DNA of 64,000 nt from NCBI RefSeq assembly GCF_000421185.1, contig NZ_ATWJ01000011.1, positions 248,001 through 312,000 on the forward strand, in the 5' to 3' direction. This DNA is from Ornithinimicrobium pekingense DSM 21552 (GTDB lineage: Bacteria > Actinomycetota > Actinomycetes > Actinomycetales > Dermatophilaceae). This document shows, piece by piece, positions 29,014 to 60,219 of this stretch (positions are counted from its first letter, which is position 1; the number at the start of each line of letters is the position of its first letter). The notes below the pieces were generated by a model. That model was not told the origin of the DNA. It saw only the letters and a list, made by a program, of their open reading frames with translations, and searched no databases. The translations under genes and the position numbers were made by a program.

Positions 29014-29021
29014 GCGGCGCC

Positions 29022-29113
29022 GGGCCACCGGCGACACCGCCCGCACACCCCACGGGCCACCGACGACACCGCCCGCACACCCCACGGGCCACCGACAACA
29101 CCGCCCGCACGCC
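29022..29113. repeat. 32-bp tandem repeat, about 2.9 copies
   Basis: Units start at 29022, 29054 and 29086. Each begins GGGCCACCG and ends with CGCACACCCCAC; copies differ at one to three positions. It starts 9 bp after the hisC stop. Copy number may vary between strains. Confidence 0.92.
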
Positions 29114-29149
29114 GCGTAGGACCCTTCGCGCCGCACATGGCGCCGCGTG

Positions 29150-29200
29150 CCGGGGATACCGCCTCGTGCCGTGGAAGCTTCCCCCGCGCGGGGCGGTATC
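29150..29200. repeat. palindromic element, family of 32201-32230 and 40238-40267
   Basis: Centred on AAGCTT at about 29175-29180, with imperfect arms CTCGTGCCGTGG / CCCCCGCGCGGG and outer arms ATACCGC / GCGGTAT that lengthen the palindrome. The left flank TGCCGGGGATACC matches the left flanks of the two other copies. Confidence 0.65.
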
Positions 29201-29245
29201 TACTGCACGGCACGGTTTCCGCAGCACAGGACAGCGCCGCGCACC

Positions 29246-29303
29246 GCCGTGCGGTTCTGTCGTGTCACATGCGTCGCTGTGACGACCGTTGTGACACGAC
29301 AGC
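29246..29303. repeat. palindromic element, intergenic copy of the one inside a glycosyltransferase gene
   Basis: Arms CTGTCGTGTCACA and TGTGACACGACAG (13 bp, perfect) flank about 20 nt. The whole 58-nt segment aligns without gaps to 47621-47678 inside a glycosyltransferase gene; a stretch of 22 nt ending in GTTGTGACACGACAG is identical in both. Confidence 0.85.
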
Positions 29304-29325
29304 GGTGCACGAGCGTTCGCACCGC

Positions 29326-32080: not shown

Positions 32081-32200
32081 TGGTTCACCCTCCGGCTGGG
32101 GAGTCGGTCGCACGGCTCAACGCTAGCCACCCTGGCGTCGCAGGACCGGCTTTGGCGGCGGTGCGGCGCGGGGAAAAGCTGCCCGTGCCGGAGAAGACGT

Positions 32201-32230
32201 CTCGTGCGGGGGAAGCTTCCCGGGCACGAG
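32201..32230. repeat. 30-bp palindromic element (family of 29150-29200 and 40238-40267)
   Basis: Arms CTCGTGCGGGGGAAG and CTTCCCGGGCACGAG, centred on AAGCTT, pair at 13 of 15 positions. The left flank GTGCCGGAGAAGACG matches the flank of the 40 kb copy. It lies in the 190-bp gap between the CPBP gene and the coiled-coil gene. Confidence 0.85.
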
Positions 32231-32270
32231 GCCGCTTCACCGGCGCCGGACAGCGTTGCCGGCGCGGGAC

Positions 32271-32831
32271 TCAGCGGTCGTCGTCGTCATCGTCGTCGCA
32301 GTCCCACTCGGCGTCGTCCTCGTCCCACTCGCAGCCGCCGCCGGGGGCGACCGGCGCGGGCTGGACCGGGATGGGCTCGGCCCTGCGCTGCTCCTCGGCG
32401 GCCTTCTCCGCGGCCTTGCGCTGCTCCTCGGCGGCCTTCTCCGCGGCCCTGCGCTGCTCCTCGGCGGCCTTCTCCGCGGCCTTGCGCTCCTCCTCGGCGG
32501 CCTTCGCGTCCTCCTCGGCCTCGCGGGCCTCGGCGGCCCGGGTGAGCAGCGCCTCGGAGGTGGAGCCCAGCAGGGTGACGACCTGGTCGAGCGAGGCAGA
32601 GCGGCCGGGCCCCTCCGTCGCCGTGGCGGACCCGGTCGAGTCGCCGGTCGGGGCGGAGTCCTCGGTGGTGTCCTGCCCGCCGATGACGGCGGTCACGGCG
32701 TCGGGGTCGACGGGGCCGGTGATGACGACGCCCGCAGGCTCCTGACGGGCCTGCGCGGTGGCGTCCATCCAGAGCCAGGCGCCCGTGAGGCCGACGAGCA
32801 CCAGGGCCACGACCGAGGCGAGGATCTTCAT
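32271..32831 (-). CDS. membrane-anchored coiled-coil protein with poly-Asp tail
   Basis: A 186-residue protein of unknown function. It has a short basic start and one membrane helix (MKILASVVALVLVGLTGAWLW), a Thr/Ser/Asp-rich stretch, then about 50 residues of Glu/Ala/Lys/Arg coiled coil with three near-identical 11-residue repeats (AAEKAAEEQRR). A short Pro-rich link leads to an acidic end with two Cys, two Trp and seven consecutive Asp. The tail could bind calcium or other cations outside the membrane. The repeats correspond to 33-bp tandem DNA repeats. Confidence 0.8.
   Translation of the reverse strand: MKILASVVALVLVGLTGAWLWMDATAQARQEPAGVVITGPVDPDAVTAVIGGQDTTEDSAPTGDSTGSATATEGPGRSASLDQVVTLLGSTSEALLTRAAEAREAEEDAKAAEEERKAAEKAAEEQRRAAEKAAEEQRKAAEKAAEEQRRAEPIPVQPAPVAPGGGCEWDEDDAEWDCDDDDDDDR
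32380..32484. repeat. 33-bp tandem repeats in the coiled-coil gene
   Basis: Three nearly identical 33-bp units (each containing CTGCTCCTCGGCGGCCTTCT) encode the 11-residue coiled-coil repeat. The unit is in frame, so changes in copy number would alter coiled-coil length without frameshift. Confidence 0.85.
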
Positions 32832-36861: not shown

Positions 36862-39072
36862 TCAGACCGTGACCCGCACCGGTGCGTCGCGCTGCACGTC
36901 GGTGCCGTCGCCGATCTGGCCGTACCAGTTGTCGCCCCAGCACCGCACCTCGCCGCCGGTCGTCAGGGCGCAGACGTGCCGGTAGCCGGCCGCGACCTGC
37001 GCCGTGGTCCCGCCGCCCAGGCCCTGGACCGGACCGGGTGTGGCGCGCGGCTCGCTCGCCGCCCCCACCCCGAGGGTCCCGAACGTGTTCGCCCCCCAGC
37101 ACACGGTGGCTGCCGCCGTCGTGAGTGCGCAGTTGAAGCCGGATCCGCTGGCGTCCACGGCGGTCGCGCTGCCCGGGCCGAGCCCACCGACCTCCACCGG
37201 GACCAGCGACCAGTAGCCACCACCTCCGGGGTGGGGGTATCCCAGCCCACCCTCGGCGTTGTCGCCCCAGCACCGCACGGCGCCCTCCCGCGTGACCGCG
37301 CAGCCGTGGTGCACGCCCGCGGAGACCTGGGCGGTGGTGCCCGGGCCCAGGCCGCTGACCTGGCTGGGGGTGGTGCGCTCGACGTCGGTGCCGTCCCCGA
37401 GCCCGCCGACGACGTTGGAGCCCCAGCACAGGGCGGCGCCGTCGGTGCGCACGGCGCAGGTGCTCAGGTAGGTGGCGTCGACCTGGCGCGTGGTCCCCGG
37501 CCCCAGACCGGAGACCAGGGCGGGCCAGGCCTGCGACCCGCCCTTCTCCATACCGATCCCGAGCTGGCTGGAGGAGTTGGATCCCCAGCACCGCGTCGCG
37601 CCGGTGATGCTGAGCGCGCAGGCGTGCTTCTGGCCGGTGGTGACCTGCACGGTCGTGCCGGCGCCGAGCCGGGGAATGTCGACCACCTCCGTGCTGTGGG
37701 TGCCGTAGGGCCCGGCGAGCGTGCCGTCGTGGTTGGATCCCCAGCACCGCACCGCCCCGTCGGTCGTCAGCGCGCAGGTGAACCCTCCGCCGACCGCGAC
37801 CGAGCGGGTGGTGCCGGCGCCGAGGCCCTTGACGGAGACCGGGGACGGGCTGGCGGTCGTGGTGCCGTCGCCGAGCTGCCCGGCCCCGTTGTAGCCCCAG
37901 CAGCGCACCGCCCCGGCCGCCGTGACGGCGCACGAGTGGCCGGCGTCCGCCGCGACACTCGCGGTCGGGAGCAGCTGGCCGGGTCGGGCGGCCGCCGAGG
38001 CTGCCTGCAGGGTCGCGTCGCACACGGCGCCCGGGCCGCCGAGCGCCAGCACGCGGTCGGGCGTCACCAGGGACAGGTATGCGGTGACGCTCGCCGGGAG
38101 CGCGCCGCAGCGCTGCGTGACCAGCAGCACCGGACCGTCGGCCAGGACGCCGGCGGCGACCGCGTCCGCGAGCGTGTCACCGCGGGCGAGATAGACCGTC
38201 GAGGGGGCCTCGGGGAAGGCCCGTCCCGCGAGCGAGGCCGCGGTGTCGTAGCGGTTGCTGCCGTGGACCCGGTCGGGCCGGTGGTAGGAGTAGGGAAGCT
38301 CCTGCAGCGTGGAGTCGGCGACGACGGTGGGGCCGCCGATGCCGACCGCCTGCGGGGACGCGAGCCGGGCGAGCTCCCACAGGACCGCCGTGGGGTAGGA
38401 CCCGTCGGGCCGGACCAGCAGCACCGGGCCGTCGGTCAGCGACCCCGCGGCGACCGCGTCGGCGTAGGCCGTGCCGTTGGCGACGTAGACGGGCCCCTCG
38501 GTCTGCCCCCGGTAGACGCGCTCGCTGATGAGGGCCGCGGTGTCGTAGCGGTTGTCGCCGGCGATCCGGTCGGTGGCTCGCCCGGCGGCCGCGGCGCGCA
38601 GGGTGTCCTCGCACACGGCCCCCGGTCCGCCGAGCGCGACGACCTGCCGGGGCGCGAGGCGGGTGATCTCGGCCTGCACCGCGGCCGGGACGGTCCCGCA
38701 CGGGCGCACGAGCAGGATGGGCCCGTCGGTCAGCATGCCGCCCGCGACCGCGTCGGCGAACTCGTCGCCGCGGGCCAGGTAGACCGCCTCGGACCCACCG
38801 GGGAACGCCCGGCGCGAGATGGCCGCCGACGTGGCGTAGCGGTCGGAACCGCCGACGCGGCCGGTGGTGGCGGCCGGGCCGAGGTCGGTCGTTGCGGCCG
38901 GGCCGAGGTCGGTCGTCGCGGCGGTGCCCGCGGTCGGGGCCGGCGTCGCCGACGTTCGGGTCGGTTCTGCGGCCGCGGCCTGCGCCGAGGGACTGCCCAT
39001 CGCGGCTGCGACCAGGAGTGCGACGACGATCACCACCCACCTGGTCATGGTCTGCTCCATCGCACCCACCAT
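36862..39072 (-). CDS. secreted CWB2 - RCC1 repeat fusion protein
   Basis: A 736-residue secreted protein. A signal peptide (MTRWVVIVVALLVAAAMG, cleavage near AQA-AA at about 32) is followed by a linker with DLGPAATT repeats. Three cell-wall-binding repeats 2 (CWB2) span about 73-155, 168-255 and 268-352 (motifs G-SDRYATSAAIS, ADAVA, DGP-LLV, ALGGPGAV). Residues about 371-736 carry seven RCC1-type repeats, each with a Cys followed about ten residues later by CWG, so one disulfide per blade is likely. It would hold a seven-bladed propeller on the cell wall. ATG 39072 has GGGGAG; ATG 39048 is also possible. Confidence 0.88.
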   Translation of the reverse strand: MVGAMEQTMTRWVVIVVALLVAAAMGSPSAQAAAAEPTRTSATPAPTAGTAATTDLGPAATTDLGPAATTGRVGGSDRYATSAAISRRAFPGGSEAVYLARGDEFADAVAGGMLTDGPILLVRPCGTVPAAVQAEITRLAPRQVVALGGPGAVCEDTLRAAAAGRATDRIAGDNRYDTAALISERVYRGQTEGPVYVANGTAYADAVAAGSLTDGPVLLVRPDGSYPTAVLWELARLASPQAVGIGGPTVVADSTLQELPYSYHRPDRVHGSNRYDTAASLAGRAFPEAPSTVYLARGDTLADAVAAGVLADGPVLLVTQRCGALPASVTAYLSLVTPDRVLALGGPGAVCDATLQAASAAARPGQLLPTASVAADAGHSCAVTAAGAVRCWGYNGAGQLGDGTTTASPSPVSVKGLGAGTTRSVAVGGGFTCALTTDGAVRCWGSNHDGTLAGPYGTHSTEVVDIPRLGAGTTVQVTTGQKHACALSITGATRCWGSNSSSQLGIGMEKGGSQAWPALVSGLGPGTTRQVDATYLSTCAVRTDGAALCWGSNVVGGLGDGTDVERTTPSQVSGLGPGTTAQVSAGVHHGCAVTREGAVRCWGDNAEGGLGYPHPGGGGYWSLVPVEVGGLGPGSATAVDASGSGFNCALTTAAATVCWGANTFGTLGVGAASEPRATPGPVQGLGGGTTAQVAAGYRHVCALTTGGEVRCWGDNWYGQIGDGTDVQRDAPVRVTV

Positions 39073-40055: not shown

Positions 40056-40237
40056 TCGGGTGCCCTGCCGCCAGGAAACGGCTACCGAGGAGTAGTCTCC
40101 GAGGTGCGACCCGGTGCCGTGGATGAACCGCCGTGTCGTGCTCAGCACCTGTTCGATCCCTGTTCTCGAACAACCCGCTGAGAGGCGCCTCCTTCCGGCG
40201 CTGCCGGAGGGAGGCGTTTCCATGCCGGCGAAGCACG

Positions 40238-40267
40238 CTCGTGCGGGGGAAGTTTCCCCCGCACGAG
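40238..40267. repeat. 30-bp near-perfect palindrome (family of 29150-29200 and 32201-32230)
   Basis: Perfect 14-bp arms CTCGTGCGGGGGAA and TTCCCCCGCACGAG flank GT. The left flank ATGCCGGCGAAGCACG matches those of the other copies. Confidence 0.9.
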
Positions 40268-40476
40268 AAGACTGCCCAGGCGCAGGACACCCTGCCCGGC
40301 AGAGGACACGGCGCGCGCCACGACCTGACACGCCCGCCGATGGCAAAGGTTTGACCAAGTCCCTTCCGGTGCCGCGTGCGCTTCGTTAGGTTCCGGACCA
40401 GGTGACGGCCGCACGACCCGAGGCGGCCGCCGCCTTTCCCTGCAACCTGCAGCGACGCACGGTGCTCCGACGGGAC

Positions 40477-46874: not shown

Positions 46875-48215
46875 CTAGGGCACGGGTGCCGGCTCCGCGG
46901 TGAGGCGGTCGGCGTCGGGTCTCCCGGCGACGTCGCCGGCGGGGACGCGCGTCAGGTGGTGGGCGACGGGCGCCAGCGTGGCGTCGAGCACGTGCGCCCA
47001 GGAGTGGCGCGACTCCATCCGCACCCGGGCCGCGGCACCCATGCGCCGGGCGGTGGCCGGGTCGGCGGCGAGCGTGTCGATCGCGGCGGCCAGCGCGCGG
47101 GGGTCGGACGGCGGCACGAGCAGGCCGGTGTGGCCGTCGGCGACGACCGTGGGGATCTCGCCGATGCGGGAGGCGACGACGGGCAGGGCGGCCGCGCCGT
47201 ACTCGTAGACCTTCAGCGGCGAGAAGTAGTGGCCGCCGGAGTCGGGGTAGGGCGCCACGGCGACCGACGCGCCCTCGAGCGCGGCGGGGACCTGCTCGGG
47301 GGCGACGGCCCCGACCATCTCCAGCTCGACGCCGTGCTCGGCGGCCAGCTGCTCGAGCGCGGCGCGCTGCGGCCCGTCGCCGACGAGGCGCAGCCGCCAC
47401 GGCACCCGGGCCAGGGCGGCGGCGCGGACCAGGTCCTCGACGCCGTGCCAGGGCTTGAGCGTGCCGACGAAGACGACGACGGGGTCGCCGGACAGGTCGG
47501 GGGTGACGGCTCGGACGCGGTCGGTGTTGACGCCGTTGGGGGTGACGACGACGGCGGGGCCGCCTGTGGCTGGGCTGCTGGTGATGGCCGCGCCGCCGCT
47601 GACTGCCGCCTCCGCACGCTCGTGCGGCTCTGTCGTGACACGGGCGTCGTCAGGACGACCGTTGTGACACGACAGAACGGCACGACGGTCCGGCAGGGCC
47701 TCGGCGCGCTGCCGCACCCAGGCGGCCACCGGCTCGGAGACGCACGCGACGACGTCGGCGGCGGCCAGCTGGTCGGCCAGCGCGAGCTCCGCGGCGGCCT
47801 CGTCGACGAGCACGCGGTGGGTGCGCTGCTCGTCGATGAGCGGGGCGTTGACCTCGAGCACCGTGGTGCAGCTGTGGGCGGCCCGCACGGTCGGCAGGAC
47901 GGTCGAGAAGAGGGAGTAGCGCTCGTGGACGACGTCGGGCGCGGCCTCGAGCACCATCGCGGCCAGCTCGGCCGCGGCCCGGCGCTGGGCGACCTCACGG
48001 GCGGCCGGGTCCTCCCCCTTGGCCACCGGCACGACGTGCACGGGCAGACCGGCCAGGTCGGCGGGCACGTCGTCGCCGCGGCGCACGGCATACACCTCGA
48101 CGTCGGCGCCGCGGGCGCGCCAGGCGCGCACGAGCTCCTGGATGTGGACGCTGGCGCCCTTGGTGCCGAACACCGGGATACCGGGGTCGGCGCAGACGTA
48201 GGCCACGCGAGTCAT
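46875..48215 (-). CDS. glycosyltransferase family 4 with an inserted palindromic element
   Basis: A 446-residue GT-B enzyme. DPGIPVFGTKGASVHIQELVRAWRARG is the N-terminal donor/acceptor fold; VVFVGTLKPWHGVEDLVRA and APYPDSGGHYFSPLKVYEYGAAALPVVAS (E of the EX7E type) form the nucleotide-sugar site. Between VRQRAEALPDR and VVVTPNGVNTDRV lies a segment of about 44 residues (177-220, including VLSCHNGRPDDARVTTEPHE) encoded by a palindromic repeat that also occurs in an intergenic gap at 29246. ATG 48215 has GGAGGT and overlaps the preceding stop. Confidence 0.88.
   Translation of the reverse strand: MTRVAYVCADPGIPVFGTKGASVHIQELVRAWRARGADVEVYAVRRGDDVPADLAGLPVHVVPVAKGEDPAAREVAQRRAAAELAAMVLEAAPDVVHERYSLFSTVLPTVRAAHSCTTVLEVNAPLIDEQRTHRVLVDEAAAELALADQLAAADVVACVSEPVAAWVRQRAEALPDRRAVLSCHNGRPDDARVTTEPHERAEAAVSGGAAITSSPATGGPAVVVTPNGVNTDRVRAVTPDLSGDPVVVFVGTLKPWHGVEDLVRAAALARVPWRLRLVGDGPQRAALEQLAAEHGVELEMVGAVAPEQVPAALEGASVAVAPYPDSGGHYFSPLKVYEYGAAALPVVASRIGEIPTVVADGHTGLLVPPSDPRALAAAIDTLAADPATARRMGAAARVRMESRHSWAHVLDATLAPVAHHLTRVPAGDVAGRPDADRLTAEPAPVP
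47612..47678. repeat. palindromic element inside a glycosyltransferase gene
   Basis: A small hairpin CCGCACG-CT-CGTGCGG (47612-47627) runs into a larger imperfect palindrome with arms CTGTCGTGACAC and GTGACACGACAG. The segment 47621-47678 aligns without gaps to the intergenic copy at 29246-29303. The insertion keeps the frame open. Confidence 0.85.
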
Positions 48216-51955: not shown

Positions 51956-51992
51956 ACGTGACACTGGTGCACCACGTGCGCCAATGTCACGT
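51956..51992. repeat. palindromic element (family of 57142-57178 and 59471-59529)
   Basis: Left arm ACGTGACACTGGTGCA and right arm TGCGCCAATGTCACGT pair at 14 of 16 positions with a 5-nt spacer. It lies 39 bp upstream of the response-regulator start. Confidence 0.85.
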
Positions 51993-52040
51993 GCGGCGCA
52001 CCTGTGAGGCAGGCCACACCCCATATTCGCCACCCCCAGA

Positions 52041-57110: not shown

Positions 57111-57141
57111 GCCGGTGCCGGGGCACCCGGTCTGGTCACCC

Positions 57142-57178
57142 ACGTGACATTGGTGCACAGGGTGCGCCAGTGTCACCC
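57142..57178. repeat. palindromic element (family of 51956-51992)
   Basis: Left arm ACGTGACATTGGTGCA and right arm TGCGCCAGTGTCACCC with a 5-nt spacer. It fills the gap between the converging ends of the siderophore-interacting gene and the M20 gene, so it is not an operator here; it may work as a terminator. Confidence 0.85.
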
Positions 57179-59470: not shown

Positions 59471-59529
59471 GTTGGCGCAGACGGTGCGCCAACCGCACCT
59501 TTGGCGCGCATGCTGCACCAGTGTCACGT
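59471..59529. repeat. double palindromic element (family of 51956-51992)
   Basis: Two units in tandem: GTTGGCGCA-N5-TGCGCCAAC (59471-59493, perfect 9-bp arms) and TTTGGCGCG-N5-TGCACCAGTGTCACGT (59500-59529). Both keep the 5-nt spacer of the family. The second unit overlaps the last codons of the next leftward gene. Confidence 0.8.
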
Positions 59530-60219
59530 GGGTGAAGCGACACCCTCCCCCGGCGCCGGGCCCAGCCAGGGCTGGCTGACCCAGACCCGCGCCCCGCGCG
59601 GGAGGTCGACCTCCTCGCCGGCCGCGATCCGTCGGCAGGCGGCGACGAGCTCCATCGCGGGGCGTGGCGGGCCGGGGCTGCCGCCAGCCCCTGCGGTCAT
59701 CCGCGACCACCGCGCCTCCCAGCGCCCGTCCTCGCCGCGCACCACCACGACCGGGCTCGTCAGCACCTCGACGAAGAGCTCGTCCACGGCCTTCAGCATG
59801 GTCTCCGACCCGCCGTCGCAGGCGTCGCACCCGCAGTCCGGCTGCCGCTCCAGCACCACCTCCGCCTCCGCCAGCGCGAAGGTCACCACCGGCATCGGCT
59901 CGTCCCGCTCCAGCACGAGCAGGGGCAGCGTTCCCGGCCGGTCGCTGGAGACGCGCCAGCCCCTGGCGACCGGCAGCTCGCCCTGGGACAGCGCCCCCAC
60001 CTCGCCCACCGGCTCCACCCTGAGACCCGGCACCCGCGCCAGCTCGGTCAGCCAGGCGGCGGTGCGGCGGAAGAGGATCTCGTAGCGCTCGGGCTCGGTG
60101 CACCGGGAGTATGCCGCGTCGTCGGGGCTTGCCCCGCCCCACGGGTCGGGCCACGCCGGCAGGTGCTCTGCGGCATACCCGCTGGTCACCGCGGCGAGCA
60201 ACGCATCGACGTCCACCAT
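59524..60219 (-). CDS. DUF6226-like protein
   Basis: A 231-residue soluble protein. RYEILFRRTAAWLTELARVPGLRVEPVGEV, AEAEVVLERQPDCGCDACDGGSETMLKAVDELFVEVLTSPVVVV with a CxCxxC cluster are features I associate with the actinobacterial DUF6226 family; function unknown. The Cys cluster could bind a metal. Its 3' end is built from part of a palindromic element, so the final residues (EGVASPT) probably differ from those of relatives. Confidence 0.75.
   Translation of the reverse strand: MVDVDALLAAVTSGYAAEHLPAWPDPWGGASPDDAAYSRCTEPERYEILFRRTAAWLTELARVPGLRVEPVGEVGALSQGELPVARGWRVSSDRPGTLPLLVLERDEPMPVVTFALAEAEVVLERQPDCGCDACDGGSETMLKAVDELFVEVLTSPVVVVRGEDGRWEARWSRMTAGAGGSPGPPRPAMELVAACRRIAAGEEVDLPRGARVWVSQPWLGPAPGEGVASPT

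Follow-up and report, generated by a model that had tools for sequence, protein, structure and literature searches.

A 74-bp palindromic element that lies in frame within a glycosyltransferase gene of Ornithinimicrobium pekingense DSM 21552 (G000) belongs to a family whose copies also bracket a gene for a nuclease-like protein. Copies of this family are dispersed through the genome, reside in frame in protein genes, have arms that covary, and are more alike within a genome than between genomes. We incline, with modest confidence, to the reading that this is a selfish repeat system resembling REP/RAYT, in which the element is the non-autonomous unit and the partner is an unrelated, homing-type nuclease.

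The window, i.e., the whole 64,000-nt stretch of DNA that was analysed, contains a GT4-type glycosyltransferase gene of 446 aa on the minus strand (46875..48215, ATG at 48215; Pfam Glyco_trans_1_4, E 2.2e-29; Glyco_transf_4, E 1.2e-11). The element lies within this gene at 47616..47689 and encodes, on the minus strand, a peptide of ~24 residues, RRAVLSCHNGRPDDARVTTEPHER. A second copy in the window (29243..29316) was taken as intergenic, since no frame of at least 150 aa that overlaps it shows the high third-position G+C seen in coding frames here. A repeat search of the window aligned 29240-29319 with 47613-47692 without gaps at 78% identity, and a 19-nt piece of the arm had three matches in the window at up to three mismatches, two of them exact, where 0.01 would be expected. 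The initial annotation had paired 47621-47678 with 29246-29303; the gapless alignment is real, but these numbers are 2 nt out (they give an offset of 18375, the true one being 18373). The run of 22 identical nucleotides that it described is indeed present (29281-29302 and 47654-47675), as is the open reading frame through the element (446 aa). It had also proposed ~44 added residues, and an insert does exist: the stretch between motifs measures 63 residues in G000 vs. 23 in the G013 orthologue, i.e., 40 extra. However, the palindrome encodes only ~24 of these, and the remainder is linker without element origin. In an AlphaFold model of the glycosyltransferase (21 sequences), mean pLDDT was 86 and residues 179-209 fell below 50; this segment is predicted to be a disordered loop between domains.

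Alignment of glycosyltransferase homologues (96 rows, in which at least five records are present twice) showed the insert to be missing from nearly all. The sole row with an insert of comparable length is that of the congener G001, which has 62 residues where the G000 protein has 51; at the same position four others have small expansions of 26-29 residues, and the rest have 17 or fewer. DNA was inspected for two of these four expanded rows (L035 and L036), and in neither does a match to the element exceed 12 nt. Among the 17 genus loci that were read, the G001 insert proved to hold a palindrome version peculiar to that species, in the same frame and at the corresponding site, which suggests an old or re-used site, and the remaining 14 loci have a short linker. 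One homologue, L123, was left out of the alignment; it is 49% identical, comes from a record titled Vibrio cholerae and is probably contamination. The element had originally been interpreted as a possibly active or recent repeat similar to the Rickettsia palindromic elements (RPE). The likeness holds, in that a dispersed palindrome lies in frame in an actinobacterial protein gene and at least three coding genes carry it, but "active or recent" is doubtful, since the congener carries the palindrome at the corresponding site in the same frame and the candidate enzyme gene of G000 (see below) contains an in-frame stop.

A search of the whole G000 genome (3.85 Mb, 15 contigs) located the element at 20 places (40 hits, each place being found on both strands) and thus not as a single copy. 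It is a nearly perfect even palindrome with the consensus ACCCTCGTGC..CTGTCGTGTCAC..GTCG....CGAC..GTGACACGACAG..GCACGAGGGT. Gene context was read with flanks for 18 of the 20 places, and in at least three of these 18 the element sits in frame in a coding linker: that of the glycosyltransferase (L010), of CydDC (L013) and of PabAB (L019). The L013 gene is read as a CydD-CydC-like ABC fusion from its two ABC_membrane/ABC_tran halves, and the L019 gene is a PabAB-like GATase-Chorismate_bind fusion. The peptides from the three copies are, respectively, AVLSCHNGRPDDARVTTEPHE, AVLSCHGRRQGDRRDTTEPSQ and AVLSSHGGRPDDHRDTTAAHE. Phase 2 of the 74-bp core is used by these three and also by the G001 glycosyltransferase and G016 CydDC copies, although these five cases are not independent; among the G000 copies, phase 0 is free of stops in 18/18 and phase 2 in 12-13/18. 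In genes, the inserted stretch exceeds the element in length. There was no sign of the target-site duplication that characterizes MITEs: the 12-nt flanks of 18 G000 cores share 3.6 nt on average, vs. 3.5 in controls.

Across the genus, the family is present in 18 of 31 genomes at E<=0.001, using a covariance model built from 25 copies, with G005 and G004 giving weak hits. Genomes with well-matched copies each have a version of their own, built on one common plan in a fixed register. The arms showed compensatory change at 25 of 35 pairs, and the covariation score was 0.359 vs. 0.182 for shuffled sets, with none of 500 shuffles as high; the set comprised 25 hand-picked of 46 cores, and the result is somewhat biased because the model that found the cores already contained structure and each core was centred on its best palindrome. 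Mean identity between elements is 77% within G000 and 75% within G001, vs. 58% between them, and the nearest neighbour lies in the copy's own genome for 36/37 copies; only the G016 CydDC copy departs from this, its nearest neighbour being a G003 copy. Palindromes occur in the CydDC linkers of G000, G006, G010, G016 and G040 at 24-27/35 pairs, where unrelated linkers reach 23 by chance. The model also has a hit in G003 that falls between two partial CydDC matches, and a degenerate one inside the CydDC match of G004; the CydDC of some other genus genomes, e.g., G013 and G011, contain no palindrome of the family.

The predicted hairpins are very stable, as would be expected if the palindromes were bidirectional terminators or RNA hairpins under selection. 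We consider this explanation very unlikely, given that copies lie inside genes, differ in sequence by species and bracket one gene family, and that Rfam at its gathering threshold returned nothing but a tRNA for the window, L013, L019 and L020.

Pairs of copies 1.1-1.4 kb apart enclose one and the same gene in G000, G001, G003, G040 and G044. Its product joins an AbiEi-like domain, of the helix-turn-helix kind, to a Vsr/EDxHD-like nuclease domain. In G000, this candidate enzyme gene lies outside the window (contig C9:280907-281842) and contains one in-frame TAG, so that present activity in G000 is doubtful; the G044a gene likewise has one TGA, and the G040a gene matches in two frames. The protein was modelled with a pLDDT of 89.5 and a pTM of 0.83. 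Foldseek matched the N-terminal part of the model to AbiEi (6y8q, E 5.3e-4) and Rv2827c (1zel, E 5.6e-4). The C-terminal part was matched weakly to I-Bth0305I (3r3p, probability 0.97 but E 0.16) and more weakly still to NGO0050 (3hrl, E 2.5) and Vsr (1vsr, E 2.8). At the sequence level, PADLOC AbiEi models matched all 21 members (best E 4.3e-20) and Pfam AbiEi_4 matched nine of the 21 (best E 7.5e-4). Pfam nuclease families gave no match for the A3 members, a sequence search of solved structures returned only two chance-level hits, and NCBIfam yielded nothing meaningful (best E 0.13). E198, D232, H245 and H250 are invariant in 21 aligned rows and may correspond to the residues of the EDxHD/Vsr motif.

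Homologues of the gene occur in 24 of the 31 genus genomes at E<=1e-5, 19 of them at E <1e-60. At the latter threshold the gene is present in 17/18 genomes with elements and in 2/13 without (Fisher p 1e-5, ignoring descent). G010 is an element-bearing genome (7 hits) with only a 63-residue remnant of the gene. Homing endonuclease genes undergo a cycle of invasion, decay and loss, and, by analogy, the state of G010 would fit such a cycle. G013 and G019 have the gene and no palindromes of the R2 type; other repeats flank their genes. Related nuclease-like genes in G013 and G004 (L228 and L230) each lie between two inverted repeat copies of 68-74 bp, 93-96% alike, that do not form a strong palindrome.

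To compare flanks over a wider range, similarity was scored by blastn at E<=1e-5 within 350 bp of the gene. Among 297 genomes of the order, 28 matched the gene at E<=1e-20, and the 26 that do not belong to the genus represent seven families. The genus comprised 26 places, with four distant paralogues (L234-L237) left out, and 45 of 46 places outside it were used (L260, on a short contig, was dropped, and with it the sole f17 locus). Flanks were similar at 61 of 71 loci, i.e., 22/26 in the genus and 39/45 (24/26 + 15/19) outside it, in six families, and at 45/71 they matched in both orientations, i.e., they are palindromic. The 10 loci whose flanks were not alike are G021, G006a, G016b, the G010 remnant and six order-wide loci. 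None of the control glycosyltransferase genes with true ends had similar flanks (0/79 and 0/14, together 0/93; L123, L038, L039 and L045 were dropped, and at least five records are common to both sets). A poorer control set, in which many gene ends were incorrect or incomplete and there was overlap for six of the 22, likewise gave 0/73 (of 80) and 0/22 (of 23), i.e., 0/95. As further controls, 13 of 815 sliding segment pairs were alike, as was one of 88 pairs taken within one flank of the same loci. The flanking repeats are visibly different between genera. In G117 (family f8), for example, a palindrome of its own, visibly different from the others, is found at 17 places (35 hits), two of which bracket its gene.

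These figures bear on an explanation in which host recombination, a lost transposase or template switching moves the palindromes, the nuclease-like gene being a passenger or a defence gene that happens to lie in repeat-bracketed cassettes. The persistence of palindromes in G010 (7 hits) beside a mere 63-residue remnant would agree with it, as would the PADLOC label of the N-terminal part, AbiEi being a component of abortive infection. We nevertheless think it unlikely: the same pairing is found with visibly different repeats across six families, far above controls, and gene and elements co-occur across the genus.

Phylum-wide, 11 of 396 genomes match the gene at E<=1e-15. Flanks match at five of the 12 phylum loci that were read (L275, L277, L279, L283 and L285) and not at seven, five of which belong to family f21. 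L285 is in fact in G000 itself (C8:392879-393646), where a distant AbiEi/DUF559-like gene is bracketed by its own palindrome, GTGTGGTGACCCCGTG.., with three clear places in the genome.

Within the genus, palindromes were found on both sides of the gene at 14 of 26 loci, although single scores of 21-24/34 also arise by chance. These loci form five syntenic groups and two single sites and so do not count as independent. A palindrome type of their own is shared by the b copies of G044, G006 and G040. Distances between proteins and between palindromes were correlated (Mantel r 0.67, p 0.0015) over 11 of the 14 two-sided loci, the three with broken genes being left out, in a test confounded by descent. 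Such a correlation would also be expected if the AbiEi-like protein were a transcriptional regulator and the palindromes its operators, forming a dispersed regulon with autoregulatory flanking copies, in which sites and protein co-evolve. PMC7319586 describes AbiEi and Rv2827c as binding inverted repeats in their own promoters, and palindromes on both sides at 14/26 loci place one upstream as well. Yet the far side of the gene also has a matching copy at 61/71 loci, further copies are found within the coding sequence of unrelated genes, an operator with ~74 bp of pairing would be a long one, and the conserved D/H/H of the nuclease-like part would be superfluous in a regulator, all of which makes this account rather improbable.

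For the selfish system that we favour, we infer the following course of events. The protein would bind the palindrome as a dimer, with one AbiEi-like domain per arm, and would nick or cut the palindrome to which it is bound. Repair from another copy (gene conversion) would keep the copies of a genome alike and would let palindrome and protein drift together, and rare repair or hairpin events might place palindromes at new sites. Copies in coding linkers would survive if the frame remained open and the peptide were hydrophilic and disordered.

Support for the gene conversion step is mixed, since left-right likeness leads in only six of 14 loci. On the one hand, the G000 and G001 copies in the glycosyltransferase gene are 62% alike, vs. 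averages of 80% and 77% to the other copies of their own genomes. At the glnA site (G000a, G003a and G038a), identity between left and right palindromes is 78-91%, and no other locus exceeds 66%. In 6/14 loci the two palindromes of a locus resemble each other more than their best match elsewhere, clearly so in G000a, G003a, G038a and G040a. On the other hand, they are less alike than the best match elsewhere in 8/14 loci, mostly among close relatives. We put at slightly below even the odds that independent insertions struck the orthologous glycosyltransferase and CydDC sites more than once, in permissive linkers, instead of the copies there being passed on by descent and then converted, an alternative that concerns the concerted-evolution step only. 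The left-right comparison at those eight loci would agree with repeated insertion, as would the distance from the CydDC ADDRW motif to the element, which varies between species, and the lack of the element in G013 and others. Against it, the G000 and G001 glycosyltransferase copies share register and frame, and the glnA nuclease site is syntenic in G000a, G003a and G038a though the palindromes differ by species. A broader proposal can be put forward tentatively, and we rate its chances at somewhat under even: that widespread actinobacterial selfish cassettes exist in which an AbiEi-EDxHD nuclease would recognise its own long bracketing palindromes as a dimer, spread them, and homogenise them via break-induced gene conversion, so that copies, including translated ones, would change together and track the nuclease.

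Several known systems share parts of this design. RPE are dispersed palindromes that lie in frame in unrelated protein genes and are read as a short peptide (PMC10969869). Compared by description, the G000 element is similar in being a multi-copy palindrome in frame in unrelated genes, but differs in its size (~74 bp), its 20 places, its actinobacterial host and its tie to a nuclease-like gene. CGTC repeats, which include RPE-4 and RPE-6, are described as lacking a dedicated transposase (PMC3733652), and small palindromic repeats outside the RAYT systems are not known to have a dedicated enzyme. The CGTC found at one end of such repeats is near a foot in only 6/46 cores here. In REP/RAYT systems, short palindromes are dispersed, the enzyme gene is flanked by repeats, and enzyme groups co-evolve with the repeats (PMC8266576, PMC3733652). 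As in these systems (TnpA_REP, REPtron), an enzyme gene is bracketed here by cognate repeats, although the enzyme is of another kind, AbiEi plus Vsr/EDxHD-like, and the element exceeds the 20-50 nt cited for REP. The foot tags of REP are rare among the cores (GTAG in 1/46, GGAG in 2/46). A RAYT/Y1 (HUH) transposase was sought and rejected as partner: PF01797 was detected in 0/19 genomes, including G000 and 13 of the genus, at E<=0.01, and in 6/14 control genomes.

The GC clusters of yeast mitochondria are GC-rich palindromes, also in frame in var1 and linked to gene conversion, and yeast mitochondria have stand-alone endonuclease genes as well (PMC8811140). They differ in being organellar, and the portion of that source used here states no nuclease bracketed by its own palindromes. 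As for the enzyme, the EDxHD protein I-Bth0305I forms a dimer on its target, which spans nearly 60 bp (PMC3943268). The predicted C-terminal fold of the bracketed protein weakly resembles I-Bth0305I and Vsr, but is joined here to an AbiEi-like domain and bracketed by repeats. Conversely, AbiEi-type proteins bind inverted repeats (PMC7319586), and the bracketed protein resembles the AbiEi antitoxin and Rv2827c in its predicted N-terminal fold and AbiEi profile, but has an extra nuclease-like domain. No open PMC paper among the matches listed joined AbiEi, Vsr or DUF559-type genes with palindromic repeats, and none was found for "palindromic repeat" with Ornithinimicrobium. With matching repeats on either side of it in six families of one order, the nuclease-like gene provides a directly testable candidate enzyme. 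This suggests more than one origin for the repeat-plus-enzyme design, and the element family shows a route by which repeat DNA adds peptide segments to actinobacterial proteins.

The window also holds repeats of other kinds. A second dispersed family, ~94 nt long and centred on palindromes like GGGGGAAGCTTCCC, occurs at 29145-29238, 32183-32276 and 40220-40313; in the last two of these copies, the arms (CTCGTGC..GCACGAG) resemble those of the main element. A third family, rich in palindromes that follow GTGACACTGGTGCAC or variants close to it, is found at 51956-52002, 57112-57176 and 59483-59559. Six repeat copies, 65-74% alike to the reference, lie in 36901-37965 at a spacing of 156-162 bp (one gap of 330). 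There are also 33-bp tandem repeats at 32345-32538, whose central copies are 97-98% alike, and three 32-bp tandem units at 29021-29116, near the intergenic element.
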